Source: a virus. Taken from it: 25,981 bases of DNA. The notes below the pieces were generated by a model. The model had not been told where the DNA came from. It worked only from the letters and a program-made list of their open reading frames with translations, and ran no database searches. A program made the translations under genes and the position numbers. The stretch is from IMG/VR virus record IMGVR_UViG_3300022818_000058, positions 1 through 25,981 of that record. The stretch is one strand, 5' to 3'. Below, piece after piece: positions 15,787 through 25,435 of the stretch (its first letter is position 1; the number at the start of each line of letters is the position of its first letter).

Positions 15787-16680
15787 TTAAATAGTTTCTA
15801 AAATCAAGGTATTCAATTCTTCAATCAACCCGCCACCCATTATGGAGTACCAGGCCAGGTCATGTTTCCGGCCAAAGTCTTTAATCCCGCCATCACGCAT
15901 TTCAACCGGCAGAGCTTCTGCGAAACCATAAGCATTGTCGCCGAACATAACTGCACGGTAAACATCGTAAGTGCTGTTCGCACCGACACCGCCGTGAGCA
16001 ACGATGGGCTGTTGGGTTGTGCTGACAAAGATAACATCATCAACTCTGCCAATTTCTCCGGCGTAAATTGCACCGTAATCTTTGGCGTTCTTGAAGTCAG
16101 GGTCATCTTTCAGGCCGCGAGCTTGGTGAGGATGCAGGAAGCAGATATAGGCATCGCCGTTCCATTTACGGACATTGGCGGTTTCCATATACTCGACAGC
16201 ATCTTTAAGCAGAGCGGAGTCAAAAAGGTCACCTTCACCCAAAAGCAAACGAGTAGCCTTGTCTCCACCATAGATGACATTATCCGAACCCATGAGAACA
16301 TCGCGAAGCATTACGTCAAGAACCTTGGCATAATCCATGCCGAGCAGACGGGCTCCGGAAGCAAGAACGTCATCAAATGAGCTTTGCAGAAGTTTTTCAG
16401 AAACTGAGATTGCATTGCCATATTCAGTTACGGTAATCGGAATTTGACTTGCGGTTAAAAGCTGGGTTTCCATATCGACGTTCTCAACCAACACACCGCC
16501 GATGGTCAGGTTGTTGTACTTCATGAACGTCATGGTCAGGCCGGGGTTTACCCCTAATTCAGTTTTCTTGGTTGCAAACTGAGCGTATCTCAGAATCGGG
16601 GCGGCGGCAAACATGATGTCTTTTGAATAGACAGTCAAAACCGCTTGGGTTAATGTCGAAGTATAAGTTACAGTGGACAT
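15787..16680 (-). CDS. Major capsid protein (N4-gp56 family)
   Basis: 297 residues. The N-terminus MSTVTYTSTLTQAVLTVYSK followed by AAPILRYAQFATKKTELGVN and PGLTMTFMKYNNLTIGGVL is characteristic for the N4-gp56-type HK97-fold capsid family, as are TVTEYGNAISVSEKLLQSSF, DAYICFLHPHQARGLKDDPD, AGEIGRVDDVIFVSTTQQPI and the C-terminal YSIMGGGLIEELNTLILETI. This is the main shell subunit. AAGGAGGAAAACGA before the ATG is a near-perfect ribosome site. Between scaffold gene upstream and decoration gene downstream. No N-terminal propeptide and no protease gene are visible nearby, which suggests a shell formed with a separate scaffold without proteolysis. Confidence 0.92.
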   Translation of the reverse strand: MSTVTYTSTLTQAVLTVYSKDIMFAAAPILRYAQFATKKTELGVNPGLTMTFMKYNNLTIGGVLVENVDMETQLLTASQIPITVTEYGNAISVSEKLLQSSFDDVLASGARLLGMDYAKVLDVMLRDVLMGSDNVIYGGDKATRLLLGEGDLFDSALLKDAVEYMETANVRKWNGDAYICFLHPHQARGLKDDPDFKNAKDYGAIYAGEIGRVDDVIFVSTTQQPIVAHGGVGANSTYDVYRAVMFGDNAYGFAEALPVEMRDGGIKDFGRKHDLAWYSIMGGGLIEELNTLILETI

Positions 16681-16702: not shown

Positions 16703-17359
16703 TTATTTCAGTCCCATATTCCTCTTAATTGCTTCCCTGTTTTTGGCCCAATCTTCCTGGGACATATTTTTTATGTCCTCCGGCGAGATTTTCGTGGACG
16801 CATTTACTACCGGGTTTGTCGAAGTCGTTGGGACTACTTTTTTCTTTGGTGTTTCAGGAACTGGAGCAGGGACTCTATTCCCTGAAACTTTAAGAGCAAT
16901 AGCTTTATATTCATCTTTAGCCAACTCAATAGACTCATCAATTTCTTCCTGGCTGTCTCCTTTAACTAAAGCTAAAATTAGGTCGTCGCCGGCCTCCGCC
17001 AATGCCCTTTCCAAATACAGGGTGAGGTCTTTCTTCTTACCGCTTTCTTCAAGAGCAGTAATCTTGTCAGACATCATTTTAAGCTGTGCTTCGAATTTGA
17101 CCTGTGCATCAACAACAGCTTTTTCTTTGTCGTTGAGCGTGGCCCTTATCGTGGACAACTCCCCTTCCAACGTCTTGATTTTCCCGTCCCGCTTGTCAAT
17201 TTCATCGTAAAGCTTGTCTTTTTCCTGCTTACGAATCTTTTTGACAAACTCCTTGACATCTTCCCTTGCCAATACTTCCTTCAGCGTAACTACTTCAGGT
17301 TCATCATCCGAATCTAGTTTCTCATCTTCTGCTTCATCTATAGCGGGTACTTCCACCAC
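16703..17359 (-). CDS. Capsid scaffold-like protein, 5' end displaced by an inversion
   Basis: 218 residues from a GTG at 17359, the best start left in the present orientation (weak AAGGA upstream). The protein is acidic and coiled-coil: EVVTLKEVLAREDVKEFVKK, KDKLYDEIDKRDGKIKTLEG and MMSDKITALEESGKKKDLTL, with a Pro/Thr-rich linker and a basic end (DWAKNREAIKRNMGLK). This layout, just before the capsid gene, is typical of phage scaffold (DUF4355-like) proteins. The frame continues open upstream of the GTG without any normal start. Reverting the neighbouring flipped segment joins it, in frame, to MPEEEKETPQIDTTIVD, giving a 243-residue protein with a proper ATG and ribosome site. I therefore see this entry as a truncated reading of a scaffold gene. 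Confidence 0.8.
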   Translation of the reverse strand: MVEVPAIDEAEDEKLDSDDEPEVVTLKEVLAREDVKEFVKKIRKQEKDKLYDEIDKRDGKIKTLEGELSTIRATLNDKEKAVVDAQVKFEAQLKMMSDKITALEESGKKKDLTLYLERALAEAGDDLILALVKGDSQEEIDESIELAKDEYKAIALKVSGNRVPAPVPETPKKKVVPTTSTNPVVNASTKISPEDIKNMSQEDWAKNREAIKRNMGLK

Positions 17360-17383
17360 TACTTCCTTCGGGGTACTTCCTTC

Positions 17384-17393
17384 ATCAACAATA
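17384..17393. repeat. Left inverted repeat of the flipped segment (ATCAACAATA)
   Basis: ATCAACAATA here and its reverse complement TATTGTTGAT at 17604-17613 bound the flipped 210 bp. The match ends at both sides. This copy lies in the 5' part of the scaffold reading frame. Confidence 0.8.
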
Positions 17394-17603
17394 TATTGGT
17401 TTCTTTGACTGTGAATTTAGACAGTCTTGAGGATTTAATGTATGATTACTTTGAACTGTTATACGCTATAGATGAATTGGAAGAACAGTATCGTATAGCA
17501 CAGGAAACAGTTGCAAGTATCTCGCTTGAGGAAGTCCAAATTATTAAGGAGGAACGGTAAAGATGCCGGAAGAAGAAAAAGAAACACCGCAAATTGACAC
17601 GAC
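17394..17603. other. Inverted 210-bp segment between the helicase-fusion and scaffold genes
   Basis: This segment carries its coding content on the plus strand while everything around it is on the minus strand. Read in the flipped orientation, it extends the upstream protein from its final YQQ through YIGFFDCEFRQS to a TGA, then holds a 40-residue gene with its own ribosome site, then AAGGAGG and an ATG that runs in frame across the repeat into the scaffold. All three joins work at once, which is unlikely by chance. Whether the flip happened in the phage population, in library preparation or in assembly cannot be decided from the sequence. Confidence 0.85.
17438..17560 (+). CDS. Small 40-residue protein inside the inverted segment
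   Basis: Plus strand, 40 residues: MYDYFELLYAIDELEEQYRI then AQETVASISLEEVQIIKEER. GAGGA lies 5 nt before the ATG. It is probably one long helix or a helical hairpin. In the restored orientation it would sit on the same strand as its neighbours, its ribosome site overlapping the TGA of the helicase fusion (TCTTGAGG) and its end holding the ribosome site of the scaffold gene. Such tiny helical proteins between portal/MuF and scaffold genes are common in phages; function unknown. It is the only apparent plus-strand gene in the window, which is itself evidence of the flip. Confidence 0.7.
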   Translation: MYDYFELLYAIDELEEQYRIAQETVASISLEEVQIIKEER

Positions 17604-17619
17604 TATTGTTGATACCTAA
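17563..17619 (+). pseudogene. Displaced 5' end of the scaffold gene (plus strand)
   Basis: A strong ribosome site (AAGGAGG, 10 nt spacing) and ATG start the 18-residue frame MPEEEKETPQIDTTIVDT, which hits a stop just beyond the 10-bp repeat. The first 17 residues are acidic and fit the N-terminus of the scaffold protein, whose frame continues in phase (EGSTPKEVVVEVPA) from the other repeat copy. I read it as the severed start of that gene, not as an independent peptide gene. Confidence 0.75.
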
Positions 17620-20600
17620 GTAACTGGGCGGGTGTCAATTCATCGTAAACTTTTTGAGCAGCCCGGCCTTTCACCGGAACTTTTTTTATGACACTCTTTA
17701 TGTCTAACAAGGCATCTCTATATAGTGTCTGCCCTGCCTTTACTACCGCCGCTTTTTGTTCTACGACAGTAAGCTTAACGACACTTTTACCCATAACAAG
17801 TATATCTTTCTCCACAACTTTTCCCCGTAATCCTTGTCTCGCAAGCTCTTTGACAATATCAAAGCCTGATAATTTATACCCAAGCAATGTTTTTTCCTCT
17901 AACAAGTCATACATTTGTTGAGCAGTTACTTTTACCCCTTTGCTAACTGGTGAGGAACTTCTCAACATCGATACTAATTCTTTAGCATATTTATCCTCCT
18001 TCGACACGCTCGTTACTCTGGGAATTGCCGAGGCTTTCGGGGCCGGGGCTAATACTTTCTCAATATTCACAGCTACTGGAGCAGAGCTTTTCTGCAACTT
18101 CTCAAGTGCAAGTTTCTTGACTTCTTCCTCTTTCCATTTAACTGTGGCTATTTTCTCAAACATCTCTACGGCCTTATTCCGCTCATTCTCAGTTAAGTCC
18201 GAAATAATTGAAATATCACCGAAATTCACTTCTTTAATCTTGCCGTTCCAACCCATATCCTCAATGAATACTTTTATATCAATATTGTGGGCTTTCAGAA
18301 CAGCAAGTTCATCTTGGCTAAATTTGTTGTACACCTTCTGGGCGGATAACTTCATATTTCTATCTGCATCCATTACAGCGTTAAGCTTTTCAAAGGCTTC
18401 CGTATGCGCCCGGCCATACCCCAAAAGCACATCATCGGATACTTCCTTAACAACATTTTTAGTTCTCGTTGCCATGGCCATTCCAATATCCTTATTTACG
18501 AGCTTGCCAGCAACTTGTTCCACTTCAATTTCCCTATAACCCTCACGCTCAATGACCTTTAACACCTTAAAGTTTCCGGCCGTTACCGACTCTAACTGCT
18601 CCCCAAAACTGCTATAAGCTTGAATATTCAAAGACTTACTTTTACCCACAACCTTAAACAAAACAGGATTATCAAATATTTCTTCTTCAAGCGTATCCTT
18701 AACAAAGGCGGAGCTTTTCGAATAACTCCTTATCCCTGCCGAATAAACATCACCTTTCTTCAAAGACAGGTTGCGGGAAACGCCGGACTCTAACCGATAC
18801 AATATTTCTTCTTTAGCTGAAGCATTGTCAATATACTCCATCAATGCATTAACAGTCTTTACATCTCTTGGGTCGAGCTTCTCTATACCCGTCCTGGCCA
18901 TAACCCTTTCCGATACAAACGGTATGGGGGAATTTCCGGCTGAAAACTCAACCAACTCATCCTCAAGCTGAGTCAATCCCCCAACATTGAAAAACTCGCT
19001 CGGTGTTTGAGCACCGGTAAGCTTTTTCAACAACCCTTCATCTAAAACAAACTTAGTCGAAATCTGGGCCGAAGTTGACCGCAGAGGAATTTCCCTTTTC
19101 AACAAAGCTTTCATGGTCTTGGCTACTCCAATTTCATCTAGAGTCTCCGCCAGTACTGCACTATCCGTTATCTTTCGGCTGATTAATAACTCTTTAGCTA
19201 TCCTTGCATCATAAGCTGTCTGGGTCTGCAAAAAGTAATTTATTACTGAATCCGTTTTCACTCCCCGCCAGTTTCTTGCTTCCCTTTGAGCCAGTTTAAA
19301 AGCTTTATTCGGTAAGTCCCAATGAACCATAATGTTCGAGATTTCCAAGTTCAAGCCTGTAGCCCCCGCCGCATCGGTCAAGACCATCATTTTTTGGTCT
19401 GGATTTTCCTTGAATTCTTTTATCAGGGTGTTTCTTTGTGCTTTTGATATTGACGAGTCATAATACAGAACATTTTCCTCACCCAACCCCGCCCGTATTG
19501 ACTTAAAAGCATCCTTATCAGAAGTAAACACCAGAACCTTTTCCCTTGGGTGCGTTCTCTGTATCCTATCTAAAGCCGCGAATTTCTTATTCTCTTCCGG
19601 CGTTCCTGTGTTCACAATCTTACCTAGTTTCCTATCCCGCCGAGCCTCGGCCTCTGTTTTAGACAGTTTTCCTGAAACTCGCAGTTCTATAGCATCATGC
19701 TCTGCTTTTGCTATTGCTTTACGCTGTCCGGCAGACAAATTGACAGTTGAAGTCCTGTGCATAAGTCTTGCCTTTACAGAACTCTTTTTCGTTATCACTA
19801 GCGGATTTAACGCATCACGCAAATCTCGCAGGATACTTTTTTCATAAATTGTCGAAGCTTTTACAATATCCTCAAACTTTGCCTCAAACTTAACTTTTGA
19901 CTCTAATAGTCCGGGCCGTAACCAATCCAACATACCATACATATCACTTACTCTATCCTTAATAGCTGTTCCTGTCATGGCAATACGATATTTTGCTTGC
20001 AGGTCTTGGGCTAGTTCCAATACATCAGCTTTTATCATGTGAGCCTCATCAATTATCACCATGTCATACCCGCCGGCACGAAGGAATTCCATGTCATGTT
20101 CAAATTGGGTATGCGAAATAACGGTAAACCCCGGCTCAGCATTAGCATACTGCTTCATCCTTACCACCCGGGCCGAAGTAGCGAGGTTCCGAGACTTTAC
20201 CCCGACAACCATTTCCTTAATTTCTTCGTCGAACTGCTTGGACAAGTTACCGGGAGTTACTATCAAAACCCTTTTCACTTTACCCTCGGCTATTAATTCC
20301 GTCGCTGACCCAATAGCGGCATGGGTTTTGCCCGCACCTGGGGCGTAGTGAATCAAACTCTGTTTGTTCTCTTTCGTAAACCTTATACCTATCTGCTGAT
20401 CTTTAGTCAACCTGAAAGGCATCATTTTCCCTGTAGATTTATTCTGTATCTCATCCTTAAAATACGCAGGAAGCCACTCCGATTTATTTTCCTTCCCCGC
20501 CCGAATCTTTTGTAGCCGGGCAGAAAGCGTCGCCCTTTTCTCTGTGTCATAAAAAGCATTAAACTTACTTATTCCGGGTTTGTCTATGACCATAAAATTC

Positions 20601-22159
20601 GTTCCTTTAGTTTTGACCATAGCATATTCTGACTTCCGTAAACCCAACTTCGTAGCTAAATCCTCGCCCCTTTGTTTTACTCCGACCGGAACATTCACGA
20701 AAGATATTCCCTTACCACTTTTCAGTTCCAACAATAACCTTTCGTGCATCTCGGTATAACCAATAGCATCTCCGAGTTCTGTTCTCGCTCCACGCAAAGC
20801 ACTTGTTCTCAAACCCATTATGGCCCGCTTCGGGGTTCCTTCCAAAACCTGTATCCGATATGACCCTGCTTCTTTGAGCAAACCATCGGCCCGTTTCATA
20901 GAAGCAAATAGGGCCTTACCCAAGTCTCTATCCATATATTCTTCTATTGACTGAATTACCAAACCTTCTTTACCTTGTGCCCGAATTTCCACGGCCAGTA
21001 ATTTCATAGCGTTATCGAGTCCGATTTCCTCAACAATATCCGGAGCCAAATATTTTCCAATCGTATTTTTACCTAGTTCAGCATAGGCACGACTTCCGCC
21101 ACGCTGAATATATTTTTCAAGGGGCTTGCTCTTAAAACCAAAAGCCCCGTTCATTCCAAAGTCAGTTTGTTTCCTAATTCTACTTTGATAGGCTATTACT
21201 TTTTCTATTGGCCTTTTTATTGGCTCAGTAAATGGCAAGGTGTGCTTAAATTCTTCTACTGTCCACTTCCTAATATAATCCTGTGTCGAGGGGCTTACGA
21301 ATCCGGCCCCGTAATTCACCATATCTTCGCCGGCCTGGGAAAATGCTTTCCTTGCTGAAACCTGTAGCATTTTCTCTGCAATAGTAACCGGAACGATATG
21401 ACATTGACAATACGGGTGGGGATAAGCGGGCATCTCCGCACCGGAATATAATCCTGTTGGGTCAATACTTGTTTCCTGTGTTGCCAATATCCCCATAGCT
21501 TTTTCGCCTGTTCCTTCGGCGAGTTTGTCACAAATATCGTACTTCTTATGGTTCGCGTCAAGTTCCCATCTTCCTAGAATCCCGGCCTTGGCCAAAAATT
21601 CCGTCGTGGCTAATTGGTCGGCCCGGGCCATTTCTGAGGTCAGTATTCGGTCGTTCCAACGAAAAGCACTCCCACCGTGAAGTGAAAGTCCGTCACCCAT
21701 CCTATTTGTCAAATATCCCTGCACTCGGTTTTTAGCTAAACCACTTTGCTTGACGGAAGTAGCAGAGGCTACCTCTTGAGCCAAACGATTATTAGTCAGT
21801 CCTTGACCGACCTTAATTCGCTGTGCTCTGGTAGCCCCTTTAAACTTCCCTGATAATTTTCTGTTAACTTTATTCTGAATCTGTTCTAATTCCCGAAGGT
21901 TCATACCCGGAATCTTTGCTGATTTCAATACCGCTTGCATTTCCGCCATTTTCTGTTCAACAACATTACCCACAGCAGAATTAACGGAACGGCGAACATT
22001 ACCAAATAAATTCTTCACTTCTTTACCCACAGCGACATCTGTTCCGCTAGTAGCTAAAATACGAGCCCCAAATTTATTTGAGATACTCTCTGCCGAAGCA
22101 CGAAAAGTTCCATGCAGTTGTTCTCTTTCCATCGCAAGTAATTTCCGGTCAACAGCCAA
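17603..22159 (-). CDS. Giant MuF-like / SF2-SNF2 helicase polyvalent protein, possibly with ADP-ribosyltransferase domain
   Basis: 1518 residues, start TTG with GGAG about 10 nt upstream. Residues ~170-258: MuF head-morphogenesis domain (ATTEFLAKAGILGRWELDAN, KYDICDKLAEG, then MPAYPHPYCQCHIVPV with Cys/His pattern). Residues ~583-990: SF2 helicase core with Q-like RLTKDQQIGIRF, Walker A HYAPGAGKTHAA (605), DEAH box VIIDEAHM (702), motif III MTGT (728), second RecA lobe KVLVFTS (874), LTDAAGATGLNL (927) and motif VI-like QREARNWR (958). Residues ~1118-1212: possible degenerate ADP-ribosyltransferase (YR.ESG, SYSKSS, QLE, FKV). The C-terminus has repeats starting AQ.(V/M)Y. MuF fusions are packaged in the capsid and injected with the DNA; a role in early host takeover, anti-defence or DNA entry is inferred. 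The present stop is probably created by the inversion at its 3' end; the restored product has 1530 residues. Confidence 0.88.
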   Translation of the reverse strand: MAVDRKLLAMEREQLHGTFRASAESISNKFGARILATSGTDVAVGKEVKNLFGNVRRSVNSAVGNVVEQKMAEMQAVLKSAKIPGMNLRELEQIQNKVNRKLSGKFKGATRAQRIKVGQGLTNNRLAQEVASATSVKQSGLAKNRVQGYLTNRMGDGLSLHGGSAFRWNDRILTSEMARADQLATTEFLAKAGILGRWELDANHKKYDICDKLAEGTGEKAMGILATQETSIDPTGLYSGAEMPAYPHPYCQCHIVPVTIAEKMLQVSARKAFSQAGEDMVNYGAGFVSPSTQDYIRKWTVEEFKHTLPFTEPIKRPIEKVIAYQSRIRKQTDFGMNGAFGFKSKPLEKYIQRGGSRAYAELGKNTIGKYLAPDIVEEIGLDNAMKLLAVEIRAQGKEGLVIQSIEEYMDRDLGKALFASMKRADGLLKEAGSYRIQVLEGTPKRAIMGLRTSALRGARTELGDAIGYTEMHERLLLELKSGKGISFVNVPVGVKQRGEDLATKLGLRKSEYAMVKTKGTNFMVIDKPGISKFNAFYDTEKRATLSARLQKIRAGKENKSEWLPAYFKDEIQNKSTGKMMPFRLTKDQQIGIRFTKENKQSLIHYAPGAGKTHAAIGSATELIAEGKVKRVLIVTPGNLSKQFDEEIKEMVVGVKSRNLATSARVVRMKQYANAEPGFTVISHTQFEHDMEFLRAGGYDMVIIDEAHMIKADVLELAQDLQAKYRIAMTGTAIKDRVSDMYGMLDWLRPGLLESKVKFEAKFEDIVKASTIYEKSILRDLRDALNPLVITKKSSVKARLMHRTSTVNLSAGQRKAIAKAEHDAIELRVSGKLSKTEAEARRDRKLGKIVNTGTPEENKKFAALDRIQRTHPREKVLVFTSDKDAFKSIRAGLGEENVLYYDSSISKAQRNTLIKEFKENPDQKMMVLTDAAGATGLNLEISNIMVHWDLPNKAFKLAQREARNWRGVKTDSVINYFLQTQTAYDARIAKELLISRKITDSAVLAETLDEIGVAKTMKALLKREIPLRSTSAQISTKFVLDEGLLKKLTGAQTPSEFFNVGGLTQLEDELVEFSAGNSPIPFVSERVMARTGIEKLDPRDVKTVNALMEYIDNASAKEEILYRLESGVSRNLSLKKGDVYSAGIRSYSKSSAFVKDTLEEEIFDNPVLFKVVGKSKSLNIQAYSSFGEQLESVTAGNFKVLKVIEREGYREIEVEQVAGKLVNKDIGMAMATRTKNVVKEVSDDVLLGYGRAHTEAFEKLNAVMDADRNMKLSAQKVYNKFSQDELAVLKAHNIDIKVFIEDMGWNGKIKEVNFGDISIISDLTENERNKAVEMFEKIATVKWKEEEVKKLALEKLQKSSAPVAVNIEKVLAPAPKASAIPRVTSVSKEDKYAKELVSMLRSSSPVSKGVKVTAQQMYDLLEEKTLLGYKLSGFDIVKELARQGLRGKVVEKDILVMGKSVVKLTVVEQKAAVVKAGQTLYRDALLDIKSVIKKVPVKGRAAQKVYDELTPAQLLRYQQ
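17604..17613. repeat. Right inverted repeat of the flipped segment (TATTGTTGAT)
   Basis: Reverse complement of 17384-17393. This copy covers the last codons of the helicase fusion; the premature TAG of that gene (17603-17605) is created at its inner border. Confidence 0.8.
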
Positions 22160-25163: not shown

Positions 25164-25191
25164 TAAACTTTTCCCTCCTTATTTGGGCCTT

Positions 25192-25249
25192 AAATCACCC
25201 TTAAAATACTACTCTAATAATAGCCTCATTCCGCCAAACTTGCAATTCT
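25192..25249. repeat. 58-bp inverted repeat, left copy (upstream of the head fibre gene)
   Basis: From AAATCACCC to GCAATTCT, this stretch is the exact reverse complement of 25924-25981, the last bases of the window. On the transcribed strand it is the leader in front of the gene at 25163. The match breaks at 25250/25923; it may continue beyond the window at the other end. Confidence 0.95.
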
Positions 25250-25292
25250 CTTAGGCGAAGCCGCCGAAGGCGTTAGCATAGCTTCGGATAAG
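25250..25292. other. Imperfect palindrome / cruciform-like element
   Basis: CTTAGGCGAAGC (25250-25261) pairs with GCTTCGGATAAG (25281-25292) over 12 bp with two mismatches. Inside it CGCC-GAA-GGCG (25262-25272) forms a second small hairpin. No T-run follows on the transcribed strand, so it is not a clear intrinsic terminator. It begins exactly where the 58-bp repeat ends. May be an RNA structure, a REP-like palindrome or part of a packaging site. Confidence 0.6.
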
Positions 25293-25317
25293 TACACATA
25301 TTGGTGTTGGTAGAACC
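25291..25317. repeat. Direct repeat copy 1 (core TACACATATTGGTGTTGGTA)
   Basis: First of three ~27-bp direct repeats after the terminase gene. Copies 1 and 3 differ by one base over the 27 positions, copy 2 by a few more. Not followed by a gene on the plus strand. Confidence 0.85.
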
Positions 25318-25360
25318 TTTACCACATAGTGTTTATTAGTAATTATATGTTTCTTTTGTT

Positions 25361-25387
25361 AGTACACATTCCGGTGTTGGTAGAACT
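25361..25387. repeat. Direct repeat copy 2 (core TACACATTCCGGTGTTGGTA)
   Basis: Second copy, 70 nt from the first. It differs from the other copies at the centre (TTCC in place of TATT). Confidence 0.85.
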
Positions 25388-25408
25388 TCAGTTTCAGGGG
25401 TTTTAGTA

Positions 25409-25435
25409 AGTACACATATTGGTGTTGGTAGAGCC
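25409..25435. repeat. Direct repeat copy 3 (core TACACATATTGGTGTTGGTA)
   Basis: Third copy, 48 nt from the second, directly abutting the terminase stop codon. Unequal spacing (70 and 48 nt) and only three copies argue against a CRISPR array. Confidence 0.85.

Follow-up and report, generated by a model that had tools for sequence, protein, structure and literature searches.

Every gene of the virus record IMGVR_UViG_3300022818_000058 lies on the minus strand, in the order terminase fragment, portal, MuF-like/SNF2 helicase fusion, scaffold, capsid and then tail genes. Within the head-gene operon of this window, by which the whole analysed stretch of 25,981 bases is meant, a piece of 230 bases (17384-17613, arms included) has the opposite coding sense. 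The locus thus raises the question of whether this piece has been flipped, and whether such a flip would be a genetic switch or an accident. A first-pass annotation had listed an invertible switch, a one-time inversion and an artefact as possible causes. That list was right, and inversion relative to the ancestral order is confirmed by related phages. Its cause is most likely accidental, at a chance repeat, either in the phage or in amplification, library making or assembly, rather than a genetic switch.

The plus-strand island and its bounding repeat

A codon-usage model was trained on the minus-strand genes of the window and employed to score both strands across the 26 kb. The plus strand scores as coding only at about 17380 to 17610, so the reversed coding sense described in the first-pass annotation holds, as one clear island. 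A second strand difference lies near 25231-25261, where neither strand scores as coding. The interval between the terminase fragment and the next gene, 25164-25435, carries no coding signal on either strand (windows examined, 25231-25380).

The features of the locus are listed in Table 1. The two arms bounding the segment match exactly over 10 bp, as had been reported, with 210 nt between them, and their similarity ends at 10 bp on either side. Such a repeat is unremarkable in itself. Repeats of at least 10 bp at a spacing of 60-600 nt occur at chance frequency, with nine pairs in the window against a mean of 9.45 in mononucleotide shuffles. When a grid of breakpoints was scored by coding alone, ignoring the repeat, the optimum fell at about 17390-17412 and 17612-17622, that is, at the repeat arms. 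In a flip test, each of the window's 167 inverted-repeat pairs with arms of at least 8 bp was flipped in turn and minus-strand coding was rescored. The score rose for three of the 167, all of them overlapping the 17384-17613 segment, with the largest gain, +28.4 bits, obtained for the 17384-17393/17604-17613 pair. Neither the coding-score scan nor the flip test found another flip in the rest of the window.

Table 1. Positions of the repeat arms, the inverted spacer and the neighbouring genes in the window
Feature	Position	Strand	Remark
Left arm of the 10-bp inverted repeat (ATCAACAATA)	17384..17393	+	In the restored frame, part of the scaffold N-terminus (TIVDE)
Right arm of the inverted repeat (TATTGTTGAT)	17604..17613	+	Encodes YQQ at the MuF-helicase end
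Inverted spacer	17394..17603	+	Sole clear plus-strand coding island of the window
Small ORF	17396..17560	+	54 codons from TTG; 40-codon version from an internal ATG
Displaced scaffold ribosome-binding site AAGGAGG, ATG (17564) and first scaffold codons MPEEEKETPQIDTTIV	17548..17610	+	Cut off from its gene by the flip
Scaffold gene as left in the record	16703..17359	-	GTG start, 218 aa; 243 aa when restored
MuF-like/SNF2-type helicase fusion	17603..22159	-	1518 aa; ends at the right breakpoint
Major capsid gene	15787..16680	-	Query for finding the nearest relatives

Restored gene order in the light of related phages

Re-inversion of the segment changes three neighbouring features. The scaffold gene grows by 25 residues and gains an ATG with a strong ribosome-binding site, the AAGGAGG and ATG being joined to it in frame. 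The small ORF lands on the operon strand. The MuF-helicase end acquires a 12-codon extension, YIGFFDCEFRQS, running to a tidy stop, with GAGG before the small-gene ATG. In the flipped form found in the record, none of the displaced parts has decayed: the small ORF is still open, and the first codons of the scaffold and its strong ribosome-binding site are intact.

The nearest relatives by capsid are five records representing about two lineages, with identities of 70-74% for L082 and L083 and of 69% for L094, L095 and L097. In all five, a gene of 99-105 residues lies directly before the scaffold on the same strand. The plus-strand ORF of the window matches the C-terminal half of the small gene of L002 (46% over 46 residues, E 7e-6; 49% over 47 residues in a second comparison). 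The DNA at 17548..17610 resembles the small gene-scaffold junction of L002, where AAAGGAGGAATGAGGTAAATG is followed by the scaffold, much as AAGGAGGAACGGTAAAGATG is followed by the scaffold once the window is restored. Farther relatives such as L007 and L086 lack the small gene; their MuF gene is followed directly by the scaffold, again on the same strand. With the small protein alone as query, no relatives were found, and capsid searches of bacterial genomes gave only distant matches, in Terracoccus and Streptomyces assemblies.

Comparison with homologous phages at the MuF-scaffold junction had been proposed as a check, and it places the small gene on the operon strand wherever the gene is present. 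Because the relatives carry it on that strand before the scaffold, and because the junctions are alike, sequence comparison indicates that the restored gene order is ancestral and that the segment of the record is inverted relative to it. By the same comparison the left junction can be regarded as secure. Both the in-frame scaffold start and the move of the small ORF to the operon strand, claimed in the first-pass annotation, were reproduced by re-inversion, and homologues confirm them. The operon is functional in its restored form, with MuF-helicase, small coiled-coil gene, scaffold and capsid on one strand.

If no inversion had taken place, the plus-strand ORF would be a native gene of the opposite strand. 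Nothing beyond the sequence as given favours this idea, the scaffold start and coding continuity come back only on flipping, and the relatives, with their homologues on the operon strand, refute it; its probability is close to nil.

The right junction and the MuF-helicase end

At the other end of the segment, the MuF-like head protein encoded at 17603-22159 is fused to a SNF2-type helicase and carries a further C-terminal extension of about 515 residues. In the relatives the helicase stops about 500 residues sooner, and the small gene has twice the length. The small gene of the window (17396-17560) is without the N-terminal half, about 57 residues, of the relatives' gene, and the missing part would fall at the right breakpoint. 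No relative of the C-terminal 515 residues was found in the phage collection, and the last 365 residues as query likewise found none. Comparison of the MuF-helicase C-terminus with itself gave no internal repeat that might show truncation at the breakpoint. The right junction, which is placed by the repeat and the ORF, is thus not secure, because the extension has no homologue against which to check it. Some DNA may be missing here, lost along with the flip or at a much earlier time.

The proposed repair at the MuF-helicase end has no independent support. The change in the ORF was reproduced, but the extension YIGFFDCEFRQS has no homologue and the relatives lack the C-terminal extension altogether, so it speaks only weakly for a repair. 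To count three independent repairs, as the first-pass annotation had done, was an overstatement, given that this junction is uncheckable and that the small gene is shorter than the relatives' copies.

Two further observations concern the same region of the relatives. The SNF2-type helicase of L083 (L083:3-2363) seems to carry an intein at its Walker A motif (GAGKG; the insert ends in HN, followed by THTAMG), unlike the helicase of the window, which has none. Between helicase and small gene, L094 carries a gene of 104 residues (L094:6523-6837) that is shared with L003, L095 and L097. It resembles a Prp-type cysteine protease and may be the capsid-processing protease.

Origin of the flip

An active invertible switch (inverton) turning normal scaffold translation off and on would control capsid assembly. 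Orientation would matter for a segment that holds the ribosome-binding site and start of the scaffold, and a promoter-like site at 17418-17446 would, after restoration, be directed along the operon. Invertons are segments bounded by inverted repeats and carrying expression signals, and their flanking repeats are described as 10-40 nt long (PMC11892184). The exact 10-bp repeat found here has the minimum length, extends no further and is of a kind frequent by chance. Neither arm is present in the relatives L082, L083 and L003, so the repeat is not conserved. As signs of a serine or tyrosine recombinase, Resolvase and Phage_integrase matches were sought in the window and in six related records, all of them fragments, and none was found. 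Promoter-like sites are at background (2 versus 0.9), no terminators turned up, and the new scaffold leader showed no signal in RNA folding (z 0.27). The segment is known here in one orientation. On the repeat, the recombinase search and the promoter-like sites, a switch is very unlikely, and it is highly improbable that a phage- or host-encoded recombinase reversibly flips the segment, switching scaffold and small-gene expression and making capsid assembly phase-variable. The proposed control of capsid assembly by the flip found no support.

A real inversion could also have become fixed in the phage lineage, in which case scaffold translation would now begin at GTG 17359. With AAGGA four bases upstream, this codon could still support weak synthesis of a shortened scaffold protein, and the scaffold N-terminal residues that would be lost are poorly conserved among relatives. 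Fixation is nevertheless unlikely, since no decay is visible in the small ORF, in the strong ribosome-binding site or in the scaffold codons that were displaced. The earlier statement that the flip would shut off normal scaffold translation is overstated: the normal start is lost, yet the GTG could act weakly.

Under the preferred reading of an accident, a spacer of about 210 bp would recently have flipped between two 10-bp inverted repeats that arose by chance, the first within the scaffold gene and the second at the end of the MuF-helicase. The most likely route would be template switching by a polymerase or some other strand exchange mediated by the repeats. It would have taken place either in a part of the phage genomes or while the DNA was being amplified, made into a library or assembled, after which the flipped form would have entered the assembled sequence. 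The flip is probably recent, because the small ORF and the scaffold ribosome-binding site and start are undecayed.

In yeast, template switching between arms of at least 9 bp inverts spacers of 2-5 nt (PMC8604942). The present case is alike in its short perfect arms (over 9 bp there, 10 here) and in a spacer inverted precisely between them while flanks and arms stay, the left junction and the orientation being confirmed by relatives and the right junction placed by the repeat and the ORF. It differs in its spacer of 210 nt and in being one assembled sequence. Most chimeras of multiple-displacement amplification are inversions whose priming relies on 2-21 nt of complementarity (Lasken and Stockwell 2007, PMC1855051). 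They share with the present case a short-range inversion joined at a short complementary stretch, but have one junction, usually with a deletion, whereas here both junctions lie at one repeat pair. Neither published pattern matches exactly. Two points count against an accident: the spacer far exceeds those of the yeast cases, and a clean flip requires two junctions where a single amplification chimera yields one. Both junctions also needed enough reads for assembly, as would be expected of a flipped form that is common in the population.

In a narrower version of the accidental reading, whose probability overlaps with that of the whole, the flip arose only in vitro, as an amplification or library chimera or as an assembly or gap-closing join at the 10-bp overlap, and is absent from all phages. 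With the normal scaffold start lost, the flip is unlikely to have become fixed in a productive population and should not be the majority form there. The preference of amplification chimeras for short-range inversions at such complementarity points the same way. The source is a public viral collection, and searches with exact words from inside and beside the segment found no second record of the same virus, within a search that may not have covered near-identical records. Some assembler gap-closers may accept 10-bp overlaps, a possibility given no weight here. Against an origin solely in vitro, a 10-bp repeat is shorter than the words of De Bruijn assemblers and by itself cannot mislead them, so that chimeric reads would be required at both ends; the rest of the record, too, is free of other flips. 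This version is a serious candidate, with a probability a little short of even.

If the flip is only an accident, it serves mainly as a warning: a short inverted stretch in a public viral record can conceal one gene, give another a wrong start and escape notice. Such flips can be detected by combining coding score with relatives. If both orientations were found in one population, this would be the first hint known to us of a phage switching its capsid scaffold by DNA inversion.
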